Source: a virus | Reading direction: 5' to 3' (one strand) | Virus record (IMG/VR): IMGVR_UViG_3300032047_001945 | Coordinates: 1-23,619 of that record | Length of the DNA: 23,619 bases | Shown: piece by piece, positions 2,702 through 17,236 of the stretch | Numbering within the stretch: the first letter of the stretch is position 1 | How the letters are laid out: each line of letters starts with the position of its first letter | Notes under the pieces: model-generated | The model's database searches: none | Seen by the model: only the letters and a program-made list of their open reading frames with translations | Told to the model about the DNA's origin: nothing | Program-made: the position numbers and the translations under genes

Positions 2702-3448
2702 CTATGCATCAGAAGCCCCAGATGCCAGAGGCTTGTCACGTTGTTCAATTACAAGAGGCTCATCAACTACCTCAACAACCGTGTGCTCATCGGGCTCTGT
2801 GTTGACTGCTTCAATAAGTTCCTCACTCAAATCAACCAAGCCACCCGTCAACAGTGCTTTGATTGCACTTTTGCGAGCCATCGCCGCAAAGTCATCGCGC
2901 CAAGGTCCCGACTTGCCGCCAGACATGGCCTTTTTCATACGCTTTTGTATGTCTGAACGTGTCAAAATCACCTGTATTTGTGACCCGTCTCTCATCTTTG
3001 CGACAGCCCATGCACCTGCAAGCTCATCATCTGTCTTCTTTACGTCATGAGCCCATTGGTGCACTATTTCAGCAGGCTCATTAGATGCCCGAAATAGACC
3101 ACGCTCGATGTCGTCATGATAAAACACGCCTGCATTCAGTCCTGCTACCTTGCCAGAGCGACGCGCTAGCTCTGCCCATCCTTTATAGCCAATCTGGACC
3201 GTTACATGTCCACCACGTGGAATGAGATGCACATATCCCATCTTTCCACCGGGCTCTAGCCCCAGCATGGCACACTGCATGATTGCCGCTGCAAATGACT
3301 GCGCGCTGCAATCCGCTAGCTTGGGAGTACGGGCAACCTCAATCAAAGCCACGCGTGCAAGTCGGTCAGGAGTCAGGTGATGGTTGATGACCTCTTCAAT
3401 CTTGGGCATCATGTGTTTTAGTACCAATTTCATGTCTGTTTTGCTCAT
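2702..3448 (-). CDS. recT: RecT-family single-strand DNA annealing protein
   Basis: 248 aa, close to the usual RecT length (about 270). The core is typical of the family: ARVALIEVARTPKLADCS, SFAAAIMQCAMLGLEPG, GYVHLIPRGG, VQIGYKGWAELARRSG and WRDDFAAMARKSAIKALL. RecT binds single-stranded DNA and anneals complementary strands in phage homologous recombination. It works with a 5'-3' exonuclease, which is encoded immediately upstream here and overlaps by four bases (ATGA). An AGAGGACAC ribosome-site box lies just before the ATG and is shared with five other genes in the window. The C-terminal 30 residues are acidic and low in conservation, which is normal. The call is secure. Confidence 0.96.
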   Translation of the reverse strand: MSKTDMKLVLKHMMPKIEEVINHHLTPDRLARVALIEVARTPKLADCSAQSFAAAIMQCAMLGLEPGGKMGYVHLIPRGGHVTVQIGYKGWAELARRSGKVAGLNAGVFYHDDIERGLFRASNEPAEIVHQWAHDVKKTDDELAGAWAVAKMRDGSQIQVILTRSDIQKRMKKAMSGGKSGPWRDDFAAMARKSAIKALLTGGLVDLSEELIEAVNTEPDEHTVVEVVDEPLVIEQRDKPLASGASDA

Positions 3449-4395
3449 TTTGTGTCCTCTTTCTTTTTAGTAAATCGCGCAACTCTGCTTGGCTCTGACG
3501 TTTTGCTGAATTGCTCATACAAGTCAGGCCTGTCAGCCTTCAACCGCTTGCTGTCAAGCCTCGTGATGCCCTTCTGACGGCTCCACGTAAACCTTCCAAG
3601 GTCACTATATATGCCCACATTGTCGCCTGCCGCCAAGGCAAGTTGATTTTTGATCCTCTTGACCTCTTTCTGTGCATTTGACAAAATATCATTATGCTTG
3701 ATGAGGTCTTCAATCAATTTCTGCTCATCGTCATTTGCTGGCTTTGCTGCCTCCTTTGGCTCTGGGTACACGTTATATAGGCCTTTCATACACTCAATTG
3801 ACCCATCAACATCAGGCACTTCACCGTTGACGATGTGGCGCGTCCACCAATCGCGTGTCTTCTTGATGACCTCCTTTTCTTTTGCTGCGTCTCTTTCAAC
3901 GACCCACTTGGCACGTTTCCAGCTGCCCGGTAAATATGCCCCAACATGCCACACGTTTGTGTCAGTGCAAATCATACACCACAAAGCCTGAAGATACACA
4001 TAATCAGGCACGCCAGCACTCCAGAGGCCTCCTTTGCTGGACACCTTACACTCAAGCCCCTGCTGTGCACCTGACGCATCCTTCAACCAAAAGTCAGGTG
4101 TGCACCTCATCCAATCCTCTGGACCTTGCACAGCCTCGGCATCAATCAACGTGCTTTTTGTTTCATCTGCAACCCATTGCGCGATTGGACGCTCTAACCA
4201 ATTACCGATACCCATTGCAGCATTGGCCTCATCCATCACGACTTCTTGCTTTTTGCTCAACCACACATCCCAAGGACCGCCATATGGCCTCACCTCGTCA
4301 GGCAAAAGGATTTGCATAATGTCTGAACCGCCAAGCCCTGACTGTCTCCACTTCAGCCAATCTAGTCGATCGCTTTTTTCATTTTCAGTTTGCAT
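3445..4395 (-). CDS. YqaJ/lambda-exonuclease-type recombination nuclease
   Basis: 316 aa. The PD-(D/E)XK nuclease core is visible: the N-terminal GLGGSDI motif (residues 20-26), GNWLERP with Glu68, TPDFWL with Asp101, GLECKVS with Glu115 and Lys117, and the downstream VYLQALW with Gln136. In this family Asp, Glu and Lys bind the metal and cut DNA, and the enzyme resects double-stranded ends 5' to 3' to make substrate for the annealase. The recT gene overlaps its stop (ATGA), which is the classic exo/annealase pair. The C-terminal third (about 215-316) is predicted helical with a charged tail. The start is the ATG nearest the divergent control region; its upstream site (GCGAG) is weak. Confidence 0.93.
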   Translation of the reverse strand: MQTENEKSDRLDWLKWRQSGLGGSDIMQILLPDEVRPYGGPWDVWLSKKQEVVMDEANAAMGIGNWLERPIAQWVADETKSTLIDAEAVQGPEDWMRCTPDFWLKDASGAQQGLECKVSSKGGLWSAGVPDYVYLQALWCMICTDTNVWHVGAYLPGSWKRAKWVVERDAAKEKEVIKKTRDWWTRHIVNGEVPDVDGSIECMKGLYNVYPEPKEAAKPANDDEQKLIEDLIKHNDILSNAQKEVKRIKNQLALAAGDNVGIYSDLGRFTWSRQKGITRLDSKRLKADRPDLYEQFSKTSEPSRVARFTKKKEDTK

Positions 4396-4462: not shown

Positions 4463-4699
4463 ATGTCATCAAAATCTGCAATCACTCCTAATTCACCCGG
4501 TCAATTTCTGGCTTGGTGTCGACAAAAAGCCGGGCTGACACAGGACCAGCTTGCATCAATGGCCTCATGCCATCGGCAAACGGTCCACAATGTGGAGTCT
4601 GACAAGAGCAAGCCTTCTGCAAGACAATGGGCTGTCTTCATGGACATCCTTGAGGTTGACCCTGCAAAGGGCTCTGAAGTGTGGCTAAAACAATGCTGA
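4463..4699 (+). CDS. Small XRE/Cro-type HTH regulator
   Basis: 78 aa. Residues 14-63 form one helix-turn-helix domain of the XRE/Cro/CI type: FLAWCRQKAGLTQDQLASMA, then a recognition helix region CHRQTVHNVES, then ARQWAVFMDIL. There is no dimerisation or peptidase domain, so the size fits a Cro-like protein rather than a full CI repressor. ATG is preceded by GGAG (4451-4454) at a good distance. It is the first gene of the rightward replication operon and faces the exo-recT operon, so it probably controls one or both promoters in the 67-bp gap. Its last codons overlap the start of the helicase gene. Confidence 0.85.
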   Translation: MSSKSAITPNSPGQFLAWCRQKAGLTQDQLASMASCHRQTVHNVESDKSKPSARQWAVFMDILEVDPAKGSEVWLKQC

Positions 4700-6051
4700 T
4701 TGCAGGAGCACTCTTTTACAAATTTGAAGAAATAACCACTGCCCGGCGTGCCGCAATGCTCACACGTCAACTGAACCCAAAATGGACACAGAACCAGAAG
4801 GCTTCAAAGTTTGGCAAGAGGCGCAAGCCAGTTGAAAAGAGCATTTTCAATGCGGGTGCGGTTAAGATTCATCCATACAAAGACTATTATGGAGGCGTGT
4901 GGGTAGCCAGACACGCCAGCAAATCAGTTGACATATCTGGCGCAACAGATGCCACGTCTTGGCCCTTGAGGACCAAAGAAGAGGCAAACGAGGCGCGCTG
5001 TGATTTGGAGTTAAGGCCCCATCAGACTGAAGCCGTCAAGGACTGGAGGCGTTTGGATGGTGATGGTGTTTGTGTGATGCCTACCGGCGCAGGCAAGACT
5101 ATCACAGGCGTACATATAGCAGCATCATGTGCCTCAAAAGTGCTCATCCTTGTGCCGTCTATTGATTTGATGGAGCAATGGAAGCAGACCATCGAAAAGC
5201 ACACACGTGTCAAGGTGGTAAAGTGGAGCAATAAACGAGGCAAGACGGGCAATATCACAATTGCAACCTTCCAGAGCATTGCACGGCTTGACCTTGTGGA
5301 TGCTTGGTCAATGGGTGAAAGGCATGGGTTGGTGATTGCAGACGAGTGTCACAGGGTGTCCGCTGTTACCTTTGGTCAAGTGATGGCCAGCTTGCCATGT
5401 AGAAAGCGTCTTGGTTTTACAGCAACGCCTGACAGAGATGACGGATTAGGTGAATGGGTGACTCAAACGTGTGGCCCAATCTTCCACACGGTCAAGGATG
5501 AAGACGTTGAAGGTCTGGGCTATGTCTTGAAGCCTTCTGTGCGGTTTGTGCGGCATGGATGGGACGATGATTTTAATGGGCTGCTCGACAGACTCCAGAA
5601 CGACATCCAGCGCAACCACCTCATTGCCAACACTGCCCGCAATAGAGTGAATGAAGGCGGTTCTGTGCTCATACTCACTAAACGAGTCAAGCACGTTGAA
5701 ATACTCACGAGGTATTTGGCCTCCGAACTAGGTGAAGAGAAGGTCAGAGCCTTGCATAGCAAAATCAAAGACCGTGAAGAGGTTATTCAAGCAGCCCGTG
5801 ATGGCGTTTGCAGGGTACTTATAGCAACCACAATTGCAGATGAGGGGCTGGATATACCTAGGTTAGACACTCTTATCTGTGCCATGCCCGTCAGTGCCGT
5901 TGAGCGCGTCAAACAGCGTGTTGGACGCATCAGGAGGCCTTGCACTGGCAAACTTGAGCCAGTTGTTTATCTGATTGATGACAACGATGTCATTGCCTCA
6001 AGGTGCCTCACCAAGGTCAAGAAGCTTTGTCGAGACCAGACGTGGATTTGA
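4681..6051 (+). CDS. SF2 (DEAD/DEAH-like) helicase, phage replication
   Basis: 456 aa from GTG 4681; ATG 4693 is the alternative start. All main SF2 motifs are present: LRPHQTEAV (111-119), Walker A PTGAGKT (134-140), Walker B DECH (221-224), motif III GFTATP (245-250), motif V ATTIADEGLDIPRLD (382-396) and motif VI QRVGRIRRP (412-420). Together they predict an ATP-driven DNA or RNA helicase/translocase. The N-terminal 105 residues are basic and contain a small beta segment (VKIHPYKDYYGGVWVARH) of unknown role, perhaps DNA binding. AAAGGG lies nine bases before the GTG. It overlaps the HTH gene upstream and the primase gene downstream, so the replication genes are translated as a block. It most likely unwinds DNA or restarts forks for the neighbouring primase; exact role unknown. 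Confidence 0.92.
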   Translation: MAKTMLIAGALFYKFEEITTARRAAMLTRQLNPKWTQNQKASKFGKRRKPVEKSIFNAGAVKIHPYKDYYGGVWVARHASKSVDISGATDATSWPLRTKEEANEARCDLELRPHQTEAVKDWRRLDGDGVCVMPTGAGKTITGVHIAASCASKVLILVPSIDLMEQWKQTIEKHTRVKVVKWSNKRGKTGNITIATFQSIARLDLVDAWSMGERHGLVIADECHRVSAVTFGQVMASLPCRKRLGFTATPDRDDGLGEWVTQTCGPIFHTVKDEDVEGLGYVLKPSVRFVRHGWDDDFNGLLDRLQNDIQRNHLIANTARNRVNEGGSVLILTKRVKHVEILTRYLASELGEEKVRALHSKIKDREEVIQAARDGVCRVLIATTIADEGLDIPRLDTLICAMPVSAVERVKQRVGRIRRPCTGKLEPVVYLIDDNDVIASRCLTKVKKLCRDQTWI

Positions 6052-6887
6052 GCATTAGCCTATTTGAATCACCTTACTACTGGCCAAAAAAGGACACTTG
6101 GGTCTACCCTAAACAACCGAAAACCATCAGCACGACGTGGACAAGTTTGATTAAAAGCCTCACACGATACCAGAAGACACCTGACAAACGACTGTCAAGG
6201 CTGTGGTCACCCGCTCGATTCAAAGAAGGTGAAACCAGAAAGGCCACAAATGTGGTTGATGTGTCTTGTCTTGTGTGGGACTTTGACGACGGCATAAGCT
6301 GGCAGAAGGCTGCAAGGCCATGGTCTGACTTTAATCACGTCATTCACGCGTCGTACAGCCACACAGAAGAGCACCACAAGTTCAGAATCGTGATACCTTT
6401 TGAGCGACCTGTCACGGCTGCTGACTGGTCTGTGGTGTGGAAGGTGTCACACAAGCGTGCTTTGTCCTGTGGTGAGTCGCCTGACGTGAAATGCAGTGAC
6501 CCATCGAGGATGTACTATGTGCCCACTTGCCCACTTGATTCAGACTGTCACTTCACGCATGTCAATCACACAGGTGAATGGTACACAGTAACGGCATCAG
6601 AGAAGGTGAAGGCTCGCAAGCCCATTGCACAGCCTGCTGTCAGCTGGAAAGCACGCCAGAGGTTGAACAAGGGCCGTGCAAACTATCGAGCAGACACACA
6701 GGCCCGGCTTGACCTTGCTCAACGTCTTGGTGCGCAAATCGATGCAAACCGAGCCCACAAAATCAAGTGCCCAAAATGTAACGCTCAAAGCGTGTGGTAT
6801 CTTTTGAACCCTGAAACCCGATACACTGCCTCTTGTAACCACCAGAATTCATGTGGATGGTTCGGGCCATTGGATGAACTACAATGA
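6042..6887 (+). CDS. Archaeo-eukaryotic-type primase (AEP-like) with zinc ribbon
   Basis: 281 aa if started at GTG 6042; TTG 6048 (TTGA overlap with the helicase stop) or GTG 6003 are also possible. I chose near 6042 because the family-like N-terminus starts at ISLFESPYY. AEP-type motifs are visible: WDFDD (Asp80, Asp82) for metal binding, SYSHTEEHHKFRIVIP with Ser106-His107, and SDPSRMYYVP with Asp153. A C-terminal zinc ribbon follows: CPKC (243-246) and CNHQNSCGW (265-273). Such proteins make primers for DNA synthesis. Its neighbours, an SF2 helicase and a VapE ATPase, fit a self-contained initiation module. The stop overlaps the next start (ATGA). The AEP assignment rests on motif reading only. 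Confidence 0.75.
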   Translation: MDLSISLFESPYYWPKKDTWVYPKQPKTISTTWTSLIKSLTRYQKTPDKRLSRLWSPARFKEGETRKATNVVDVSCLVWDFDDGISWQKAARPWSDFNHVIHASYSHTEEHHKFRIVIPFERPVTAADWSVVWKVSHKRALSCGESPDVKCSDPSRMYYVPTCPLDSDCHFTHVNHTGEWYTVTASEKVKARKPIAQPAVSWKARQRLNKGRANYRADTQARLDLAQRLGAQIDANRAHKIKCPKCNAQSVWYLLNPETRYTASCNHQNSCGWFGPLDELQ

Positions 6888-8167
6888 AACTGAAGCTGAT
6901 GACTGAACAGATAGGCCCTGAACCGGCTGTGGTTCCACACCTTGACACAATGAAGATGCCCGCCACATATGAAGGCCCGCCCAAATTCAAAGGCACTACC
7001 AAAAACGTGAAGACCATCCTTCAACGCGATAGCCGATGGTCAAACCGCATTTGGAAAAATGAGTTTACAGACCTCACGATGGTTGAGGCTCATGAATCTT
7101 CAGATGTCCAAGAGGTCACAAGTTGGAAACAGCAACACTTGCTAGACGTGATTGATTTTGTTCAGGTGAACTATGAAATTGACCCAACCACGAAAATGGT
7201 TGAATTGGCTGTGGATATTGTTGGAAGTAGAAAGGGAGTATCAAGGCATCCATTGAGAGAGTATTTGAGGCAATGCATGGCTGACTATCCTGTGTCAGAG
7301 TATTCAGGTTTGATAAATACTTGGATGTTTGACTACCTCGGCGTGTCAACTGACATGAATGGCGTTGACGCTGAAGATCTGCTCTCTACAGTTGGCAGAA
7401 AGTGGTTGATAGGTGCTGTCGCCCGTGCGTTCCGGGCAGGCTGCAAGATGGACAATGTTCTCATTCTGAAGGGTACACAAGGCACAGGCAAGAGCACAGC
7501 CCTTGAGTTCTTAGCGTCGAAGGAGTATTTTCATGATTCGCAAATTGACCTTAAAAGCAAGGATGCATATCAGGCTTTGACTGGTTGTTGGATAGTTGAG
7601 TTTGCAGAACTGGACAGCATGAAGAGGTCACAGGCAACAGCAATCAAGGCTTTTCTGTCATCGAGTAAAGACCGTTTCAGGCCTTCATATGGGTCAAAGG
7701 TTGTCGAGGTTCACAGGCATACTGTGTTTTGTGGGACTACAAACGATCAAGAATTTCTGATTGATACGACTGGCAATAGACGCTTCTGGCCTGTGGAGAC
7801 GAATGAGATTGACTGTCTCGGGCTGAAGAAGATTAGAGACAGGCTGTGGTCAGAGGCTTGTCACGCGTTCTTTGGTGGTGAGACTTGGCACCTGCCGCCT
7901 GAACTAGAGGTAGAATATGAGCAGAGGCGTTCAGAGTACGTGCAAAGCCATCCTTGGGAAGGCTTGGTCAAATCATACTGCGCCCGGCAAACAGGCCCTG
8001 TGAGCGTCAATGACGTGCTTGAGAAGGCAATTGAGATCGAGAAGGGCCGTTGGAACCGAGCCCATCAGCAAATCGTCAGCACGATGTTGAAAGACATGGG
8101 ATGGAAAGCAGCAAGGAAGCAAGGAAAGCGCGTCTGGATGCCGCCATACTGGGAGGATGGGCAATGA
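6884..8167 (+). CDS. VapE-family P-loop ATPase (SF3-like helicase)
   Basis: 427 aa. The C-terminal two thirds match the virulence-associated E (VapE) domain: Walker A GTQGTGKST (197-205), Walker B WIVEFAELD (236-244), sensor-type GTTN (284-287) and the diagnostic GNRRFWPV (297-304). The N-terminal 160 residues include a WKQ-containing helical region and no visible catalytic motif. VapE-type ATPases in phages and islands act with a primase in origin melting or replicative unwinding. Here the primase is a separate gene directly upstream, overlapping by four bases (ATGA). The gene after it also overlaps by ATGA. The call is firm at family level; the mechanistic role is inferred from relatives. 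Confidence 0.92.
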   Translation: MKLKLMTEQIGPEPAVVPHLDTMKMPATYEGPPKFKGTTKNVKTILQRDSRWSNRIWKNEFTDLTMVEAHESSDVQEVTSWKQQHLLDVIDFVQVNYEIDPTTKMVELAVDIVGSRKGVSRHPLREYLRQCMADYPVSEYSGLINTWMFDYLGVSTDMNGVDAEDLLSTVGRKWLIGAVARAFRAGCKMDNVLILKGTQGTGKSTALEFLASKEYFHDSQIDLKSKDAYQALTGCWIVEFAELDSMKRSQATAIKAFLSSSKDRFRPSYGSKVVEVHRHTVFCGTTNDQEFLIDTTGNRRFWPVETNEIDCLGLKKIRDRLWSEACHAFFGGETWHLPPELEVEYEQRRSEYVQSHPWEGLVKSYCARQTGPVSVNDVLEKAIEIEKGRWNRAHQQIVSTMLKDMGWKAARKQGKRVWMPPYWEDGQ

Positions 8168-9156: not shown

Positions 9157-9240
9157 ATGTCTGACATTATTGCACATCTTTTGTTTGCTGGCCTCTTGGC
9201 CATAATGGTACTTGCTGAGTTCATACGGGTGAGCATGTGA
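9157..9240 (+). CDS. 27-aa membrane peptide upstream of the methyltransferase
   Basis: A short frame, ATG 9157 to TGA 9238-9240, with a strong AAGGAG ribosome site at 9146-9151 and a plausible promoter just upstream. The peptide starts MSDIIAHLLFAGLLAIMV and ends AEFIRVSM; residues 5-20 are a continuous hydrophobic helix, so one membrane segment is likely. Its stop codon overlaps the GTG start of the methyltransferase, and the ATG of the nested frame follows directly, so it may act as a leader that couples translation. It may also be a functional micropeptide. I know of no family it belongs to. Confidence 0.55.
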   Translation: MSDIIAHLLFAGLLAIMVLAEFIRVSM

Positions 9241-10280
9241 ATGAGTTGGCACTATTTGCAGGAGCAGGAGGGGGTCTGTTGGGATCGCGCCTCCTTGGAT
9301 GGCGCACCAAATGCGCTGTTGAAATTGATGCCTATGCCAGAAGCGTCTTGCTTGCCCGGCAAAGAGATGGGCACCTTGAACCGTTCCCGATCTGGGACGA
9401 TGTCTGCACGTTCGACGGCAGACCGTGGAGAGGTTCAATTGATGTTATTTCCGGGGGTTTTCCATGTCAGGACATCGCAGCCTGTGGCAAAGGTGCGGGT
9501 ATTACCGGCGCACGTTCAGGATTATTTTTTGAAATGCTGCGAATTGTTAAAGAAGTACAACCTCGATTTGTCTTCGCGGAAAACTCACCAAACTTGCGCA
9601 CTAGAGGACTGCAAGAAGTTATCGAAGGGCTTGACCGCTTGGGGTATGATGTCAGATGGTGTGTTTTGGGAGCTTGGCACGTTGGCGCGCCCCATAAAAG
9701 GAACCGAATGTGGGTCCTTGGGCACCGTTCCAACGCCGCTGGCCAGCAAAAACCTCTGGCCCACCCCAACAGTGCACGGCAACAACAACCGCAAAGGCCT
9801 GACGCAGAAGAGTGGCGACGGGCTATCAACTTCGGTGAAGCGTCAAATGTGGGCAACACCCAAGGCTTGGGACTCCAGAAACATACTAGACCCCTTGGCG
9901 TACTTTCACAGGAACTCACCGCCATTGAGCGCAGCGGTTCATTATTGGCCCACTCCGCTAGCGTCGGATCATCGAGATCGGGGGAATTTGTCAAGCCCCT
10001 GCATACAACGCCGAAAGGCGAAAGGAAAGCAGATCAGTTTATCGGCCTCGGTTTCGATCAAGTCTGGGCAATTGAACCCGACGTGGGTCGAGTGGCTAAT
10101 GGGGTGGCCGCTAGGGTGGACCGACTTAGAGCCATTGGAAACGGACAAGTACCAGCAGTGGCTGTTCTTGCATTTGAAATCCTAAGTGCTGGCCTAATTA
10201 CAGGAAGCGAAAGCAGCACCAAGCATGAAACATATGCCACATCCGCCGCCCAGCAGCACAAAGAAGATGCCAATGGTTGA
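9237..10280 (+). CDS. C5-cytosine DNA methyltransferase (Dcm-like)
   Basis: 347 aa, GTG start; motif I begins at residue 5, so no later start is possible. Conserved motifs in order: motif I LALFAGAGGG (4-13) for SAM, motif IV GGFPCQDIA with catalytic Cys77, motif VI variant FAENSPNL (Glu115; ENS rather than ENV), motif VIII GAPHKRNRMW (150-159), then a variable target-recognition stretch (about 165-275), and a C-terminal EPDVGRVANG (280-289) with motif X AIGNGQVPAVA (299-309). The enzyme methylates cytosine at carbon 5 in a specific DNA site, probably to protect phage DNA. No restriction partner is seen nearby. The ribosome site GGGTGAG lies a few bases upstream. The whole gene except its ends is overlapped by a second long frame (9241-10185). 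Confidence 0.93.
   Translation: MNELALFAGAGGGLLGSRLLGWRTKCAVEIDAYARSVLLARQRDGHLEPFPIWDDVCTFDGRPWRGSIDVISGGFPCQDIAACGKGAGITGARSGLFFEMLRIVKEVQPRFVFAENSPNLRTRGLQEVIEGLDRLGYDVRWCVLGAWHVGAPHKRNRMWVLGHRSNAAGQQKPLAHPNSARQQQPQRPDAEEWRRAINFGEASNVGNTQGLGLQKHTRPLGVLSQELTAIERSGSLLAHSASVGSSRSGEFVKPLHTTPKGERKADQFIGLGFDQVWAIEPDVGRVANGVAARVDRLRAIGNGQVPAVAVLAFEILSAGLITGSESSTKHETYATSAAQQHKEDANG
9241..10185 (+). CDS. Nested +1-frame protein inside the methyltransferase gene
   Basis: 314 codons without a stop, entirely inside the methyltransferase gene in the +1 frame. ATG 9241 directly follows the stop of the 27-aa peptide and sits about eight bases after GGGTGAG. The product has internal repeats: VPTPLAS (163-169), WPTPTV (173-178), WATPKA (204-209) and WPTPLASD (236-243). 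It ends with LNPTWVEWLMGWPLGWTDL (278-296). From memory, the PTP-repeat plus LNP-WVEWLMG-P-GWT layout is a recurring phage protein type found beside or within cytosine methyltransferase loci and often left as hypothetical or methyltransferase-like. The middle (TAWGMMSDGVFWELG, 132-146) also fits that type. The function is unknown; a target-recognition or partner subunit is a guess. Confidence 0.6.
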   Translation: MSWHYLQEQEGVCWDRASLDGAPNALLKLMPMPEASCLPGKEMGTLNRSRSGTMSARSTADRGEVQLMLFPGVFHVRTSQPVAKVRVLPAHVQDYFLKCCELLKKYNLDLSSRKTHQTCALEDCKKLSKGLTAWGMMSDGVFWELGTLARPIKGTECGSLGTVPTPLASKNLWPTPTVHGNNNRKGLTQKSGDGLSTSVKRQMWATPKAWDSRNILDPLAYFHRNSPPLSAAVHYWPTPLASDHRDRGNLSSPCIQRRKAKGKQISLSASVSIKSGQLNPTWVEWLMGWPLGWTDLEPLETDKYQQWLFLHLKS

Positions 10281-12161: not shown

Positions 12162-13895
12162 TTAAGCGTAGTCACCCGGATCTGCCTGACCTTGATCTGG
12201 GCTTGGTCCCGTTGACTTGTTACCTCTTGCAACATTCTCCACAATTTGCAGGGTTAAATCAATGCGTCCTGTGTCGTTTATCTGATTGCCCTGAACAAGA
12301 GCCACCACATCCTGCAAGTATAACTCTGCATCCGTTAACAGGATCACAGAACCTAGCTCAAGATATGCATATTCTTGGCTGACTTCATAGGTGATGCTTC
12401 TGTGGCTGAACGCCTCTGCTAGTATTCGCCAATTCGTGACCTTGTGCGCAGTCGCATCGTCGTTCACAACTTCAGATGTGAATATTGATTCAGCCTTCAA
12501 GCCGTATTGAAGCTTTGAGCGTTTTGCAAACTCCGATGTGATTTGCTCGCTGTCTGTCAGGTCTGGGTCAGGTGTGTGGATGGCAGAGCGTTGGTGTTCA
12601 CCTTCAACCACGTCATAGCCATACTTGAGTGTGATTTTGTTTCTAAGCTTTGACGGTTGTGTCTGGTACTCCATGCCGGACACTCGCACCACGCCTGGCC
12701 CATGCTCAATAGAGTCAACCGCATCTCTTGACGTTGCAGCATAGTCCCAGAAGACAGGATACAGACCTTGTGCACCAGAGTGCATTGACACAGGCATCAA
12801 AGGCAACAGGTTGTCACTTATCCACTCCCAAGGCGAGACGTTGCTGTCCATAAAAAAATCGAGAAAATAGGCGTTCATCTTTTGACGCACAGCGTTAAAC
12901 CTTCCCCAATCCACCCGCAAAGTTGATTGCTTGAGCACGTATTCCATCACGTCACCCGCTCCACGCGTCAAGCCTCCTGAATCCGTTCTCACAAGCCCAC
13001 CATTTTCACCCTCTGCCGCACCTACCCATTGAACCTGAAACTCTACTGACCTGCAAATTTCAGCAGCAGCCCCAGAAATATCAACAGTGCTCACATAGTT
13101 TCCAAGCCCATCCTGACGATATGAGACAGGCCTCTCATAGTTTATGCCTGCACCAATCTCAATAAGGCCCTCATCAGGTGTCCAGCCCTCTGCCCCTACG
13201 TAATAGATGCGCACTGTTGGGCTCTTTACCCGATGACCTGCAATCAGCAAAGTGCTTGCTTGAGTTGAATCACCCACACGCGTTTCAACCACTTGCGCCC
13301 TCGTGCCGTTGCCCTCAACCACAGTGCCGTCAGGCTGCGTATACACACCGGGCCTGCCAATGACTTGCACATATGGCCTGTTGACCTCTGCATCTCTATA
13401 TCTGGGCCATGTTTCTTTATTGATTCTCTGACTGGATGGAGGCCATTCAGCAACGTCCTCAAATGGTGCCTCTTCAATTGTAAAGCTCACGGGCTCATTG
13501 TATGCGGCATATATAGGCTGACGAACACGACCCGACACAAGAACCTGTCTGTTTTCGTAGGTGTTGCCCTCGATCCATGCACTCAACTCACCTCTTGCAG
13601 TGCTCAAGTCATGACCGTTGCTGACCAGTTTAGCAATGTCAACGGGCCACATCAAATCGAGGCTGATGCTTGTCTGGTCAGGTGCATCTGCCAGCGTCTG
13701 CAATACCGTCTCAAAATCAAGCTCATTGAGCCCACCATCAAAAGAAAGGCTGTCACCGTTCACGTCTTCGATGACAACTGGCTTGGTTGACCATCTGAAA
13801 GTCTGCCCTGCATAATCAACAGACACAAGCATGTACACCTGTGCGTCTCCTAAAAGTTCAGACCAGAACAACCGACGTGTTGCAGCGTATGGCAT
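12162..13895 (-). CDS. Tail hub / tail-tip attachment protein
   Basis: 577 aa from ATG 13895, whose first base overlaps the stop of the upstream tail-tip gene (TGATG); GTG 13898 is a less likely start. There is no motif I can name with certainty. The N-terminal 150 residues (VYMLVSVDYAGQTFRWS, VLVSGRVRQPIYAAYNEPV) look like the beta domains of a baseplate ring protein. The C-terminal half (KLRNKITLKYGYDV, ITYEVSQEYAYLELGSVI) resembles gp27/J-type hub domains. Position fits too: after tape measure and distal tail, before lysis genes. It probably forms the central hub that closes the tail and carries receptor-binding parts. Confidence 0.7.
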   Translation of the reverse strand: MPYAATRRLFWSELLGDAQVYMLVSVDYAGQTFRWSTKPVVIEDVNGDSLSFDGGLNELDFETVLQTLADAPDQTSISLDLMWPVDIAKLVSNGHDLSTARGELSAWIEGNTYENRQVLVSGRVRQPIYAAYNEPVSFTIEEAPFEDVAEWPPSSQRINKETWPRYRDAEVNRPYVQVIGRPGVYTQPDGTVVEGNGTRAQVVETRVGDSTQASTLLIAGHRVKSPTVRIYYVGAEGWTPDEGLIEIGAGINYERPVSYRQDGLGNYVSTVDISGAAAEICRSVEFQVQWVGAAEGENGGLVRTDSGGLTRGAGDVMEYVLKQSTLRVDWGRFNAVRQKMNAYFLDFFMDSNVSPWEWISDNLLPLMPVSMHSGAQGLYPVFWDYAATSRDAVDSIEHGPGVVRVSGMEYQTQPSKLRNKITLKYGYDVVEGEHQRSAIHTPDPDLTDSEQITSEFAKRSKLQYGLKAESIFTSEVVNDDATAHKVTNWRILAEAFSHRSITYEVSQEYAYLELGSVILLTDAELYLQDVVALVQGNQINDTGRIDLTLQIVENVARGNKSTGPSPDQGQADPGDYA

Positions 13896-16800
13896 CACAC
13901 ATCCTCTGTAAAGCTGACTGTGCCCACACGGATAACCTCACTGTCAATCTCTTCACCCTGAACGCTCTCAAGCCTCACAGGTGACGTAATTCTACACAAC
14001 GCGCTCTGATGTCTTCTGTTTAGCGTTTGCGTTGTTCCTAGTGCCTGCTTGTCAATCCTTGGTAGATAGATGACCTGCTTGTTAGGGCCTGACAAGAGAT
14101 GAAAAACACCCTCAAAATCAAAAGGAGTGATGTCTTTCAGCGCAATGGGCTCACTGCTGCCTGCTGTGTTGGGCATCACATAGTCAGGATCTGGATCTCC
14201 TGCCGGGTTGATCCCATCCGTTGTGTCAACCGCGTCTGTCCATCCGTACTCGATGATCCTTCTAGTTGGGGCGATCTTTCGAGTCTTCACAGTTCTGTCA
14301 CGTGCCTCTTGAACCTCTGTACCGCTTGAGGTTTCGATGACTCGACCCCACGATGTCTGATCTCCATGAACAATCACAGGCCCAACCACACACCGCCCGA
14401 TCTGGAAAAAGCTATCTTTCATAGCAGGTATGAACCCACCCGGAGCAAACAGTGTGATTCTAAAGGCTTGATAGTCAGAGCCTTGCAGATGGAAAAGTAT
14501 CACATTGTCCTTTGACAGTATTTGAGCAGTGCCAGATGCCGCCTCTGCGCCTGTAATCCCGTCAAGCACTAACGATGCAGGCTTTGTGTTAGCGTTGCTC
14601 CACTTACCTGACAGATGTGACTTGATGGTGTGAGCACTCGTAGACCCAAAACAAAAGAGCGCATCCTCAAACTCACCAGCATAAATGACAGGAGCGGCAC
14701 CCGCAGGCACACCGTTGGCCTTCACATTGTCACCCGTTCGCGCAAATGGAAGCCCATTGAGGCCTTCATAGAAAGCAATGTTGCCCAAGGAAACCCATGC
14801 CGCTGTGCTGCTGTTGTACCCATGCAACTGGGCAAAAGGAAAGTTGCAATTGTAAAGACCAATGCCAAGCACGTCAGACTCCAGCGCGCTATTGCCTAGG
14901 CTCGACAACTGGAAAGAGATAGTCTGTGAAGAGGTTGAGGTGCTGCGCCAGACGCGTCTTGGATTAGGGTCAAGCACGTTCGAAAGAGGGTAATCATAAC
15001 GAGTTGCAATCTTCCACTCATCCGCTCTAATTGTAGGACCATCAACAGCACGGACAACAACACCATCATCAACGTATGTGCCTGACGCGCTGAATGGTGC
15101 TTGCATGAGGTCATTTGGATTGACCTGACCCTCTGCTATCTGCAAGCCTGTGAAGCTGCCTGTCACGCTTTGAAGCGTCCACCATTTTGAAATAGATCCA
15201 GAGGTTGCAAGATTGCCCCACAAAATCTGACTGTTGCCACCACCACCGGTATTGGCAAGGCCTGTTGATGTCGGGCCTACTGTCCAGCTTCTATCTGCTG
15301 CATCATCTCTTGGCTTCAACCAGCTTGCAAATTTAGAGCCAGCAAGACCAATGAGCACGTCAACGCCATTCCCCTGAACGCCCATCGGAATTGATCCAAG
15401 CGTTGCACCACTCTGCCCATCAAGAAAGATGACCTGATCGAAGTTAAACCTAACAATCAAGCTGTAGCCGTTCACACCACCATCATCCAAATTCAAGGTG
15501 ATTGCAACGTCATTCGTGGCCATCGATCCACCGGACTCAATGGCCATCGAGCATTGAAAAATGATCCCCTGCTCGATTGTGTGGCCCGCTGGCAGGCCTT
15601 GTGTCACATAGGAAACTGAAGAAGATGACCCATCACCTAGCTTGAGATACCCATTCAATAGCGTTTCTGTGCCGCCACCTGACTTAGACCATCCGCTTGA
15701 CCATCTGGTTGTGATGGCTCCGGGCAGATCAAAGGGAAGATATGTGTCTTCAAAATTGACGCGCCTGAAGCCTGTTTGAAAACGCTGAAAGCCCGGCATC
15801 GTCACTGTGCTTGAACCGCCCAAGTAACTGACCGCAAGACTAGGCTCGTCAATGGTGCCTGAAACACCCGGATTTGCACGCCAATTGTGGAGCACTGCCA
15901 TTCGACCTTCTGTAAAGGTCATCTGAAAAGCACGTGGACAAGTGTCTACTTTGTTCTGATTGTACCAACCGCCAGAGAAAGCTGTGAGCCCAGACAAACC
16001 AGCAAACTGGCCAATGCCTGCCCACGTGTCACCATAATCATCAGAGCGCAGCATCATGCACTGATTTGTCTCGTCGTAACTGCTGAAACTGCCGTTTGGC
16101 GTTGTGCGTCCTGTAGCGTACAACGTGCCCTGTGGCGTGCTTGCAATGCTCAAGTCACCATCTGTCAGCAATGGACCTGTCGCACCCGCTCCATAGTCGC
16201 CCCAACCAACAGGAGCGATCACAGTGTGTGCAACGCTTGTGCCTCTCTGATAAGCATTGCCAAGCCTGAACACATGAGGCTGTGCAGTGCTCAAAGGTTC
16301 GGTCTGAATGTAACCCACCACAAAATGACCAGCAGACTCAATTACATCAACATAACCGCCCGCATAGTTAACCCCATCCCATTCTTCTATGCTGTCAAAG
16401 CTGTTGCCCTCGTCCGCACTTGCATACTGCCGGATGACATCGCGGCCTGTGTACGCTGTGTTGTTAGATCTCAAATGACACATCATCAGTATCTGGCCTG
16501 AACAGTATGCAACCCTCAACCGCCTCACATCGTAGCCCGTCAACGCTGCTGAAACAGATACTGGATTGTCCAAGACATTGTCTTGACCTATTGCCCATGT
16601 TGATCCGTCATCGTCTGAAAACCACATACGGACTTGAGCCACATCACGAACCAAATCCTCAACCCAATGAAACAAAAGCACACGACCAGAAGGTAGAAGG
16701 CACAGGCAAGGATGAAACTCGGCTTCATCGGCTGTGGGCTGTGTGGCTGTTGTGTTAACTCTGACATATGTCCAAGCCCCTCCTGACCTCTTTCCAACCG

Positions 16801-17236
16801 TTACACTGAAGGGCAAGGCCTCACTGTCATCCCGCTCATAAAAGGCACACAAGATTGATTCATCCTCAAGCGTGATTGCATGTGGTTGAATGTACCACTT
16901 TTGAGGCACACTGAAGTCAGACCATTTGAGCACGTCATAATGTGTGATTATTCCGGGCACATCACGACCACGCCACAAAGTGTCAGCGTTGTTCTTCCAA
17001 CAGAATCCAGCACCGTCCGGCTCACTAAATCCACCACGTTGAGTTCTGATGCGCAAGTCTTTGTTTGCTGACTGGCTCCCAGATGCCTGTAGAGTCATTC
17101 CTGTCTGGTTTTGGGGTTCTGGCACGCCCGGCTTTGGTCCGGCTTCTGTAGCCGTCGTCTGCGCGTCCCAGATTGAGATCCTTGAGTCTTCAATCAATAA
17201 ACCTTGATAATGATCTCTGCTTGCATCGTTGCCCAT
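13895..17236 (-). CDS. Large tail-tip protein with Asp-box beta-propeller
   Basis: 1113 aa; ATG 17236 lies one base beyond the tape-measure stop (TGAAATG). Three Asp-box (BNR/sialidase-type) motifs are visible: SDDDGSTW (207-214), SADEGNSF (273-280) and SDDYGDTW (398-405). They mark a beta-propeller over about residues 90-480. Next comes a jelly-roll/LamG-like stretch (about 490-690, with FEDTYLPFDLPG and NGYSLIVRFNFDQVIFLDG), then a long beta-rich C-terminal half. The position between tape measure and hub is that of distal tail proteins. The propeller could bind or cleave host glycans; Asp boxes are structural and do not prove sialidase activity, and I did not find a clear arginine triad. 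Roughly twice the usual size for this slot. Confidence 0.78.
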   Translation of the reverse strand: MGNDASRDHYQGLLIEDSRISIWDAQTTATEAGPKPGVPEPQNQTGMTLQASGSQSANKDLRIRTQRGGFSEPDGAGFCWKNNADTLWRGRDVPGIITHYDVLKWSDFSVPQKWYIQPHAITLEDESILCAFYERDDSEALPFSVTVGKRSGGAWTYVRVNTTATQPTADEAEFHPCLCLLPSGRVLLFHWVEDLVRDVAQVRMWFSDDDGSTWAIGQDNVLDNPVSVSAALTGYDVRRLRVAYCSGQILMMCHLRSNNTAYTGRDVIRQYASADEGNSFDSIEEWDGVNYAGGYVDVIESAGHFVVGYIQTEPLSTAQPHVFRLGNAYQRGTSVAHTVIAPVGWGDYGAGATGPLLTDGDLSIASTPQGTLYATGRTTPNGSFSSYDETNQCMMLRSDDYGDTWAGIGQFAGLSGLTAFSGGWYNQNKVDTCPRAFQMTFTEGRMAVLHNWRANPGVSGTIDEPSLAVSYLGGSSTVTMPGFQRFQTGFRRVNFEDTYLPFDLPGAITTRWSSGWSKSGGGTETLLNGYLKLGDGSSSSVSYVTQGLPAGHTIEQGIIFQCSMAIESGGSMATNDVAITLNLDDGGVNGYSLIVRFNFDQVIFLDGQSGATLGSIPMGVQGNGVDVLIGLAGSKFASWLKPRDDAADRSWTVGPTSTGLANTGGGGNSQILWGNLATSGSISKWWTLQSVTGSFTGLQIAEGQVNPNDLMQAPFSASGTYVDDGVVVRAVDGPTIRADEWKIATRYDYPLSNVLDPNPRRVWRSTSTSSQTISFQLSSLGNSALESDVLGIGLYNCNFPFAQLHGYNSSTAAWVSLGNIAFYEGLNGLPFARTGDNVKANGVPAGAAPVIYAGEFEDALFCFGSTSAHTIKSHLSGKWSNANTKPASLVLDGITGAEAASGTAQILSKDNVILFHLQGSDYQAFRITLFAPGGFIPAMKDSFFQIGRCVVGPVIVHGDQTSWGRVIETSSGTEVQEARDRTVKTRKIAPTRRIIEYGWTDAVDTTDGINPAGDPDPDYVMPNTAGSSEPIALKDITPFDFEGVFHLLSGPNKQVIYLPRIDKQALGTTQTLNRRHQSALCRITSPVRLESVQGEEIDSEVIRVGTVSFTEDV

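Follow-up and report, generated by a model that had tools for sequence, protein, structure and literature searches.

A viral C5-cytosine methyltransferase probably built from two chains, with the gene of one nested in the +1 frame of the other

The window, a complete IMG/VR virus record of 23,619 bases, contains a locus that we read, with a probability of about 0.82, as a two-chain C5-cytosine methyltransferase in which the gene of one chain lies almost wholly inside the gene of the other, in the +1 frame. The alpha chain occupies positions 9237..10280 (+ strand, 347 aa, GTG start), and the beta chain, whose start lies 4 nt downstream, occupies positions 9241..10185 (+ strand, 314 aa, ATG start). 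Ribosomes would start either at the GTG at 9237, giving alpha, or at the ATG at 9241, giving beta; alpha would supply the catalytic domain, the AdoMet site, the PCQ and ENS motifs, and motif X, and beta the PTP modules and motif IX. Beta would then pack on alpha between motifs VIII and X, in the place taken in one-chain enzymes by the small DNA-recognising domain, and complete the enzyme. Both chains are presumed to be translated and to bind each other, the PTP modules of beta may help to recognise the target, and the complex could methylate the phage’s own DNA and protect it from host restriction, which is the likely use given the known roles of phage methyltransferases. Hundreds of relatives from phages and bacteria preserve the arrangement, although the databases usually annotate only one of the two proteins.

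An earlier sequence-only reading had described a 314-codon +1 frame within a 347-codon methyltransferase gene, and its coordinates and lengths proved exact; the longer frame, to which it had attributed every catalytic motif, carries FAGAGGG, PCQ, ENS, APHKRNR, and GNGQVP. All of them lie on the + strand. Motif I, FAGAGGG (9255..9275), overlaps the beta N terminus; motif IV, PCQ (9462..9470), holds the catalytic Cys77, with P76 and C77 invariant and Q78 nearly so; the ENS of motif VI (9579..9587) is invariant among relatives; the motif VIII region is APHKRNRMW (9687..9713); and motif X, GNGQVP (aa 301 to 306; 10137..10154), contains an invariant GNGQV. Alpha matched Pfam DNA_methylase (PF00145) with an E value of 6.9e-34, in a match confined to aa 5 to 184, and PHROG_363 with 2e-61, and structure comparison assigned its catalytic part to the HhaI/HaeIII fold. 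These family matches, the fold, and the relatives indicate that alpha holds motifs I to VIII and X, including the motifs I, IV (PCQ), VI (ENx), and VIII by which C5-methyltransferases are recognized, in the same chain as motif X and without motif IX. The AlphaFold model of alpha as a single chain was confident over residues 1 to 170 and motif X, not over most of residues 175 to 300, and showed no confidently folded target-recognition domain (TRD).

In the beta frame, we located four PTP-type modules on the + strand by sequence: VPTP (9727..9738), WPTP at W173 (9757..9768), WATP at W204 (9850..9861), and WPTP at W236 (9946..9957), the last with a nearly invariant T238-P239. The three similar 11-mers that had been pointed out at 9757, 9850, and 9946 correspond to the second, third, and fourth of these modules and are all in phase with beta, and VPTP adds a fourth PTP beyond them. 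Downstream, the nearly invariant motif-IX-like segment LNPTWVEWLMGWP (aa 278 to 290; 10072..10110, + strand) overlaps EPDVGRVANGVAARVDR of alpha. The assignment of beta as a chain of PTP modules plus the motif-IX-like LNPTWVEWLMGWPLGWT draws on PHROG_1008, the stop counts, and profile matches. Beta matched PHROG_1008, labelled ‘DNA methyltransferase’, at 2.8e-22, and its last 30 to 50 residues are also covered by several short PHROGs; 109/109 beta homologues matched PHROG_1008 as well. Beta had no Pfam match, and neither beta nor the C-terminal halves of staggered relatives gave a useful match in sequence searches of Pfam and PDB. As a single chain, beta was folded poorly by AlphaFold (pLDDT 55, pTM 0.27), and a fold search with this model returned no structural relative; such a model would fit an obligate partner, but it also resembles a failed model. 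Among the 109 beta homologues, between 103 and 109 matched PHROG 1008, 26627, 27243, and 35493, and 68 matched 31772. The PHROGs holding beta-chain fragments carry the labels ‘unknown function’ or ‘DNA methyltransferase’, and PHROG_1008, 26627, 27243, 35493, and 31772 likely belong together as fragments of a single family of second chains of methyltransferases.

The two frames begin at a double start (9235..9243, + strand), where the sequence reads ...GGGTGAGC-ATG-TGA-ATG-AGT..., with an ATG-TGA start-stop pair just ahead of the beta ATG and overlapping the alpha GTG. This geometry is widely retained: a beta ATG or GTG lies 4 nt past the first aligned alpha codon in 173/182 genes, and the [AG]TGA pattern was kept in 174/183. 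At the same position, alpha has ATG, GTG, or TTG in most genes and no start codon in 35, all but one of which have an in-frame upstream start within 30 codons. For the alpha and beta starts of the window alike, the Shine-Dalgarno match is weak (3 of 6).

Both frames are real, as the sequence-only reading had supposed, and selection acts on each of them over the full length of the overlap. A search based on beta showed that 598 of 600 candidate viral-contig stretches encode relatives, and in the best 80 loci found in this way, both frames stay open at the same offset for several hundred bases, and in most of them for about 900. Since a choice based on beta favours open beta frames, the search was redone from alpha alone, giving 80 viral and 80 genome loci with 40 to 67% identity to alpha, the latter from Pseudomonadota, Verrucomicrobiota, Spirochaetes, Planctomycetota, and others. 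In all 160 alpha-selected loci, the +1 frame is open over at least 86% of the length of the alpha open frame, whereas the +2 frame is open in none (0/160). Some loci retrieved with L253 (among L332 to L349) lack the full nested frame and were excluded from the support. For the counts of stops, the genes were thinned to less than 90% identity and both frames were required to exceed 550 nt (11 of 231 loci were dropped for length, completeness, or start position), giving a set of 182 nonredundant genes in which beta stops numbered 0, against 875 expected from synonymous shuffling of alpha. The deficit is present in every region, also where the N-terminal extension of beta covers alpha motifs I to IV (0 versus 213), and the converse shuffle of the beta codons predicted 9.5 alpha stops per gene, with none observed. 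For the window alone, the synonymous codons of alpha were shuffled 20,000 times, and beta was free of stops in only 3 of these shuffles (5.8 stops expected, 0 observed). Homologues of the nested frame therefore exist and are free of stops. Single stops interrupt alpha in four loci, L204 (at alpha codon 41), L212, L213, and L243, where beta is intact over the same region; they may be sequencing errors or early decay.

The silent sites of alpha are constrained as well. At 85 to 95% amino acid identity, its fourfold sites are 0.90 identical versus 0.65 in flanking genes, and third-position differences per codon amount to 0.10 in alpha versus 0.31 in flanking genes of the same contigs; these comparisons comprise 9 and 24 pairs, and the same trend holds across hundreds of more distant pairs. 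Third-position variation is thus not explained by alpha alone, and none of the three findings that the sequence-only reading had named as refuting it was obtained. The balance between the frames shifts along the gene: in the first part, beta is less conserved than alpha (0.72 versus 0.92), whereas from motif VIII to the C-terminal region with motif X, it is more conserved (0.43 versus 0.29), and alpha residues 166 to 275 are hypervariable. The possibility that beta is a passive shadow, left open because the protein sequence and codon use of alpha leave few +1 stops, could draw on the high conservation of the first part of alpha and the lower conservation of beta there. However, a passive shadow implies stops at the chance rate and unconstrained silent sites in alpha, and beta departs from it in both respects; moreover, beta is conserved above alpha in the variable region, it stays intact in a spirochaete genome locus (L241) where alpha has decayed, and conventional C5-methyltransferases have no such open frame, their +1 stops occurring at the chance rate (235 versus 230 expected). 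On the strength of the codon shuffles, the silent-site constraint, and the conventional enzymes used as controls, we rejected this explanation, to which almost no probability can be given.

The distribution of motifs IX and X over the two frames points to a methyltransferase function of beta. Using a short regular expression, we recovered motif IX in its own frame in 15 of 16 conventional phage C5-methyltransferases (L265 to L281). In genes of the window type, the same expression finds it in alpha, where a C5-methyltransferase would carry it in the same chain as the other motifs, in 0/155 and in the +1 segment or beta in 135/155; the very different ESSI2 type gave 0/80 in alpha and 74/80 in beta, the R9.1 type 3/64 versus 46/64 in the +1 frame, and the Spikelee type 0/20 versus 14/20. 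In profile-profile comparisons, the beta C termini matched the motif IX part of staggered relatives (E 1.9e-13) and of one-frame relatives (E 4e-9), and the alpha C termini matched the part next to it, which holds motif X, in these two sets of proteins (E 3.8e-8 and 2.4e-7, respectively). The segment that is contiguous there in one chain is thus divided in the window, with motif X on alpha and motif IX on beta. Aligned directly with conventional motif IX by hhalign, beta fell in the right register at a nonsignificant E of 0.59, and the link was therefore made through the one-chain and staggered relatives. These bridging families themselves match conventional motifs IX to X weakly (E 0.009 with clean sets); a value of 1.4e-6 came from a mixed set containing nested sequences and was set aside. 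In three loci of the Spikelee group (L369, L370, and L372), alpha is about 190 aa long and the +1 chain has TP-type modules, with no recognisable motif IX or X nearby. From base 601, loci L335 and L339 encode another type of phage C5-methyltransferase, in which a stop ends the alpha frame beyond motif VIII, and LSSKACEGILRRAxRRGKVLPKAL is read in the +1 frame before that frame stops as well; a frameshift may be the cause, or these may be split methyltransferases of a second kind.

The relatives also differ in where the boundaries between the frames fall. Mycobacteriophage Drake94 (gp76/gp75) and Arthrobacter phage Juno112 (gp41/gp42) each have a first gene that ends after motif VIII; the second gene, which lies in the +1 frame and overlaps the first by about 180 to 240 nt, encodes PTP repeats followed by EWMMGxPxGW and the GNGV of motif X. 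This staggered arrangement occurs in about 30 further viral loci. In the spirochaete locus L241, the alpha frame is full of stops past motif VIII, and beta continues through the PTP modules, LNPDWVEWLMGWP, and GNGQVP; motifs IX and X occur together on the small chain in L004, L005, and L241. In three one-frame enzymes (L472, L474, and L481), the PTP modules stand in the methyltransferase’s own frame, between motifs VIII and IX, which is where the target-recognition domains of C5-methyltransferases sit (PMC3404938). A group of actinophages that we call type D (L482, L483, L485, L510, L511, L513, L516, and L525) has both motifs IX and X in alpha, with a shorter +1 chain that retains only the PTP modules, so that motif IX is not always the contribution of beta. 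From the one-frame and actinophage types taken together, the PTP region emerges as the constant part of the +1 chain, with motifs IX and X moving between frames. In a tree of the catalytic domain, which is unrooted and has long branches, the overlapping types are separated from the conventional ones by a branch with support of 99/97, and the one-frame PTP enzymes fall inside the actinophage group; the tree would suit an overlap that arose once, long ago, with shifts and partial re-fusions coming later.

It had also been proposed that proteins with PTP and WVEWLMG features are stand-alone phage open reading frames near Dcm genes and that the locus could show how such a family arose by overprinting. 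This found no support: the loci read in detail show a +1 overlap with a methyltransferase and include no stand-alone phage family, leaving the proposed origin unsupported as well. Moreover, since the C-terminal half of beta is homologous to the motif IX part of other C5-methyltransferases, beta is probably not a wholly new, overprinted protein. Its N-terminal half has no known homologue outside the overlaps and no counterpart in one-chain enzymes, and at most this part of beta and the middle region of alpha look overprinted. The accompanying suggestion of a two-chain methyltransferase whose second chain comes from the same DNA has instead become the best explanation.

Other explanations accept beta as functional and differ about its role. 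It might be an overprinted protein with an unrelated job, for example in anti-restriction or host takeover, and the lack of a Pfam match, of a methyltransferase-like fold in the AlphaFold model, and of a one-chain counterpart for its N-terminal half would all agree with this; nevertheless, its C-terminal motif matches the motif IX that relatives carry fused to motif X, nested-type alphas are without motif IX where beta has it, and the one-frame enzymes place PTP modules between motifs VIII and IX of a methyltransferase, which makes such a role improbable. Programmed frameshifting could alternatively join the catalytic half of alpha to the C-terminal half of beta in one chain holding the catalytic motifs, the PTP modules, and motif IX, much as in the known one-frame versions (L481 and L472). 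Yet the product would be without motif X, beta retains a separate start 4 nt after that of alpha in 173/182 genes, and it is open over the whole catalytic half, for which a fusion would have no use (0 stops versus 213 + 360 expected); we regard a frameshift fusion as very improbable.

A closer variant retains the two-chain enzyme and assigns target recognition to alpha, with beta contributing no more than motif IX and support to the structure. In M.EcoHK31I, the TRD is predicted to lie on the large chain (PMC3404938), and the hypervariability of alpha residues 166 to 275 is what would be expected of a TRD. On the other hand, beta is better conserved than alpha in that region, AlphaFold gives no confident TRD fold in alpha, and the type D actinophages keep a PTP chain even though motifs IX and X are both in alpha. 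This division of labour is possible, although we consider it doubtful.

Among known systems, the closest is M.EcoHK31I, alongside which M.EaeI is named; the beta chain of M.EcoHK31I has about 176 aa, and Lee, Kam, and Shaw reportedly placed the small EcoHK31I gene inside the large one, in another frame, in 1995. The window resembles it in having motif IX on the second chain and motif X on the first and, if that reported nesting is right, in the nesting of the second gene in the other frame; it differs from EcoHK31I in that its beta starts 4 nt downstream of the alpha start and reaches 314 aa, with an N-terminal extension and several PTP modules. M.EcoHK31I (YGGCCR) consists of two polypeptides, the large one with motifs I to VIII and X and the small one with motif IX only, and M.AquI (CYCGRG) is a C5-methyltransferase that occurs naturally as two chains, divided at the variable region (PMC3404938). 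In M.AquI, motifs IX and X are both on the small chain, whereas the window has motif X on alpha; an M.AquI-like build is seen in the staggered Drake94 gp76/75, Juno112 gp41/42, and L241. In a Fernvirus (Paenibacillus larvae phage), gp56 is annotated without explanation as ‘g55 internal gene’ and occupies the +1 frame of the methyltransferase gp55, with a shorter beta of 234 aa; no study of this gp55/gp56 pair was found in the literature searched. The conventional phage enzymes (L263 and L265 to L281) share the same catalytic domain with motifs I to VIII and X and differ in having motif IX in the same frame and a +1 frame full of stops. The ShiLan element (PMC11855218) also hides a second frame within a phage methylase gene, but it is a mobile insertion with an out-of-frame HNH homing endonuclease and no methyltransferase chain. 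Our literature search, which was incomplete in coverage, returned only M.EcoHK31I and M.AquI as precedents, together with the unrelated ShiLan element. Whereas M.EcoHK31I is the known precedent for the motif split, the literature searched contained no account of an overlap running from end to end, of how widely it occurs among phages and bacterial phyla, or of relatives with a staggered or hybrid build, all of which appear to be undescribed.

We think it slightly better than an even chance that, in a large and old clade of phage and bacterial C5-methyltransferases, one stretch of DNA encodes both chains of an obligate two-chain enzyme, the catalytic chain in one frame and a sequence-recognition chain in the +1 frame. 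The latter would consist of exchangeable PTP modules, to which motifs IX and X may or may not be added. Over evolutionary time, the frame boundaries would shift among nested, staggered, hybrid, and re-fused forms, and a change of specificity would alter both proteins at once. If this is true, the pair would be, to our knowledge, among the longest and most widespread same-strand overlaps in phages and bacteria, with about 300 codons selected in both frames. It would also follow that phage families of ‘unknown function’ (e.g., PHROG 26627, 27243, and 35493) are missing halves of methyltransferases and that, for many of the phage methyltransferases now annotated, cloning a single frame would give an inactive product. 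How a protein complex evolves when its chains share their coding DNA would become testable, with the staggered and re-fused relatives as natural controls.

The neighbours of the locus in the window are replication and recombination genes, with RecT-like, RecE-like, and helicase/primase genes at 2702-4395 (- strand) and 4681-8167 (+ strand). Two long open reading frames on the - strand, of 578 aa (12162-13898) and 1113 aa (13895-17236), adjoin a tape-measure-like gene and had no PHROG match at an E value of 0.001. In Klebsiella phage BUCT711 (L264, 1603-2118), the annotated methyltransferase starts inside alpha, so that its N terminus is missed; the full alpha (VNELALFAGAGGG...) continues upstream in frame.
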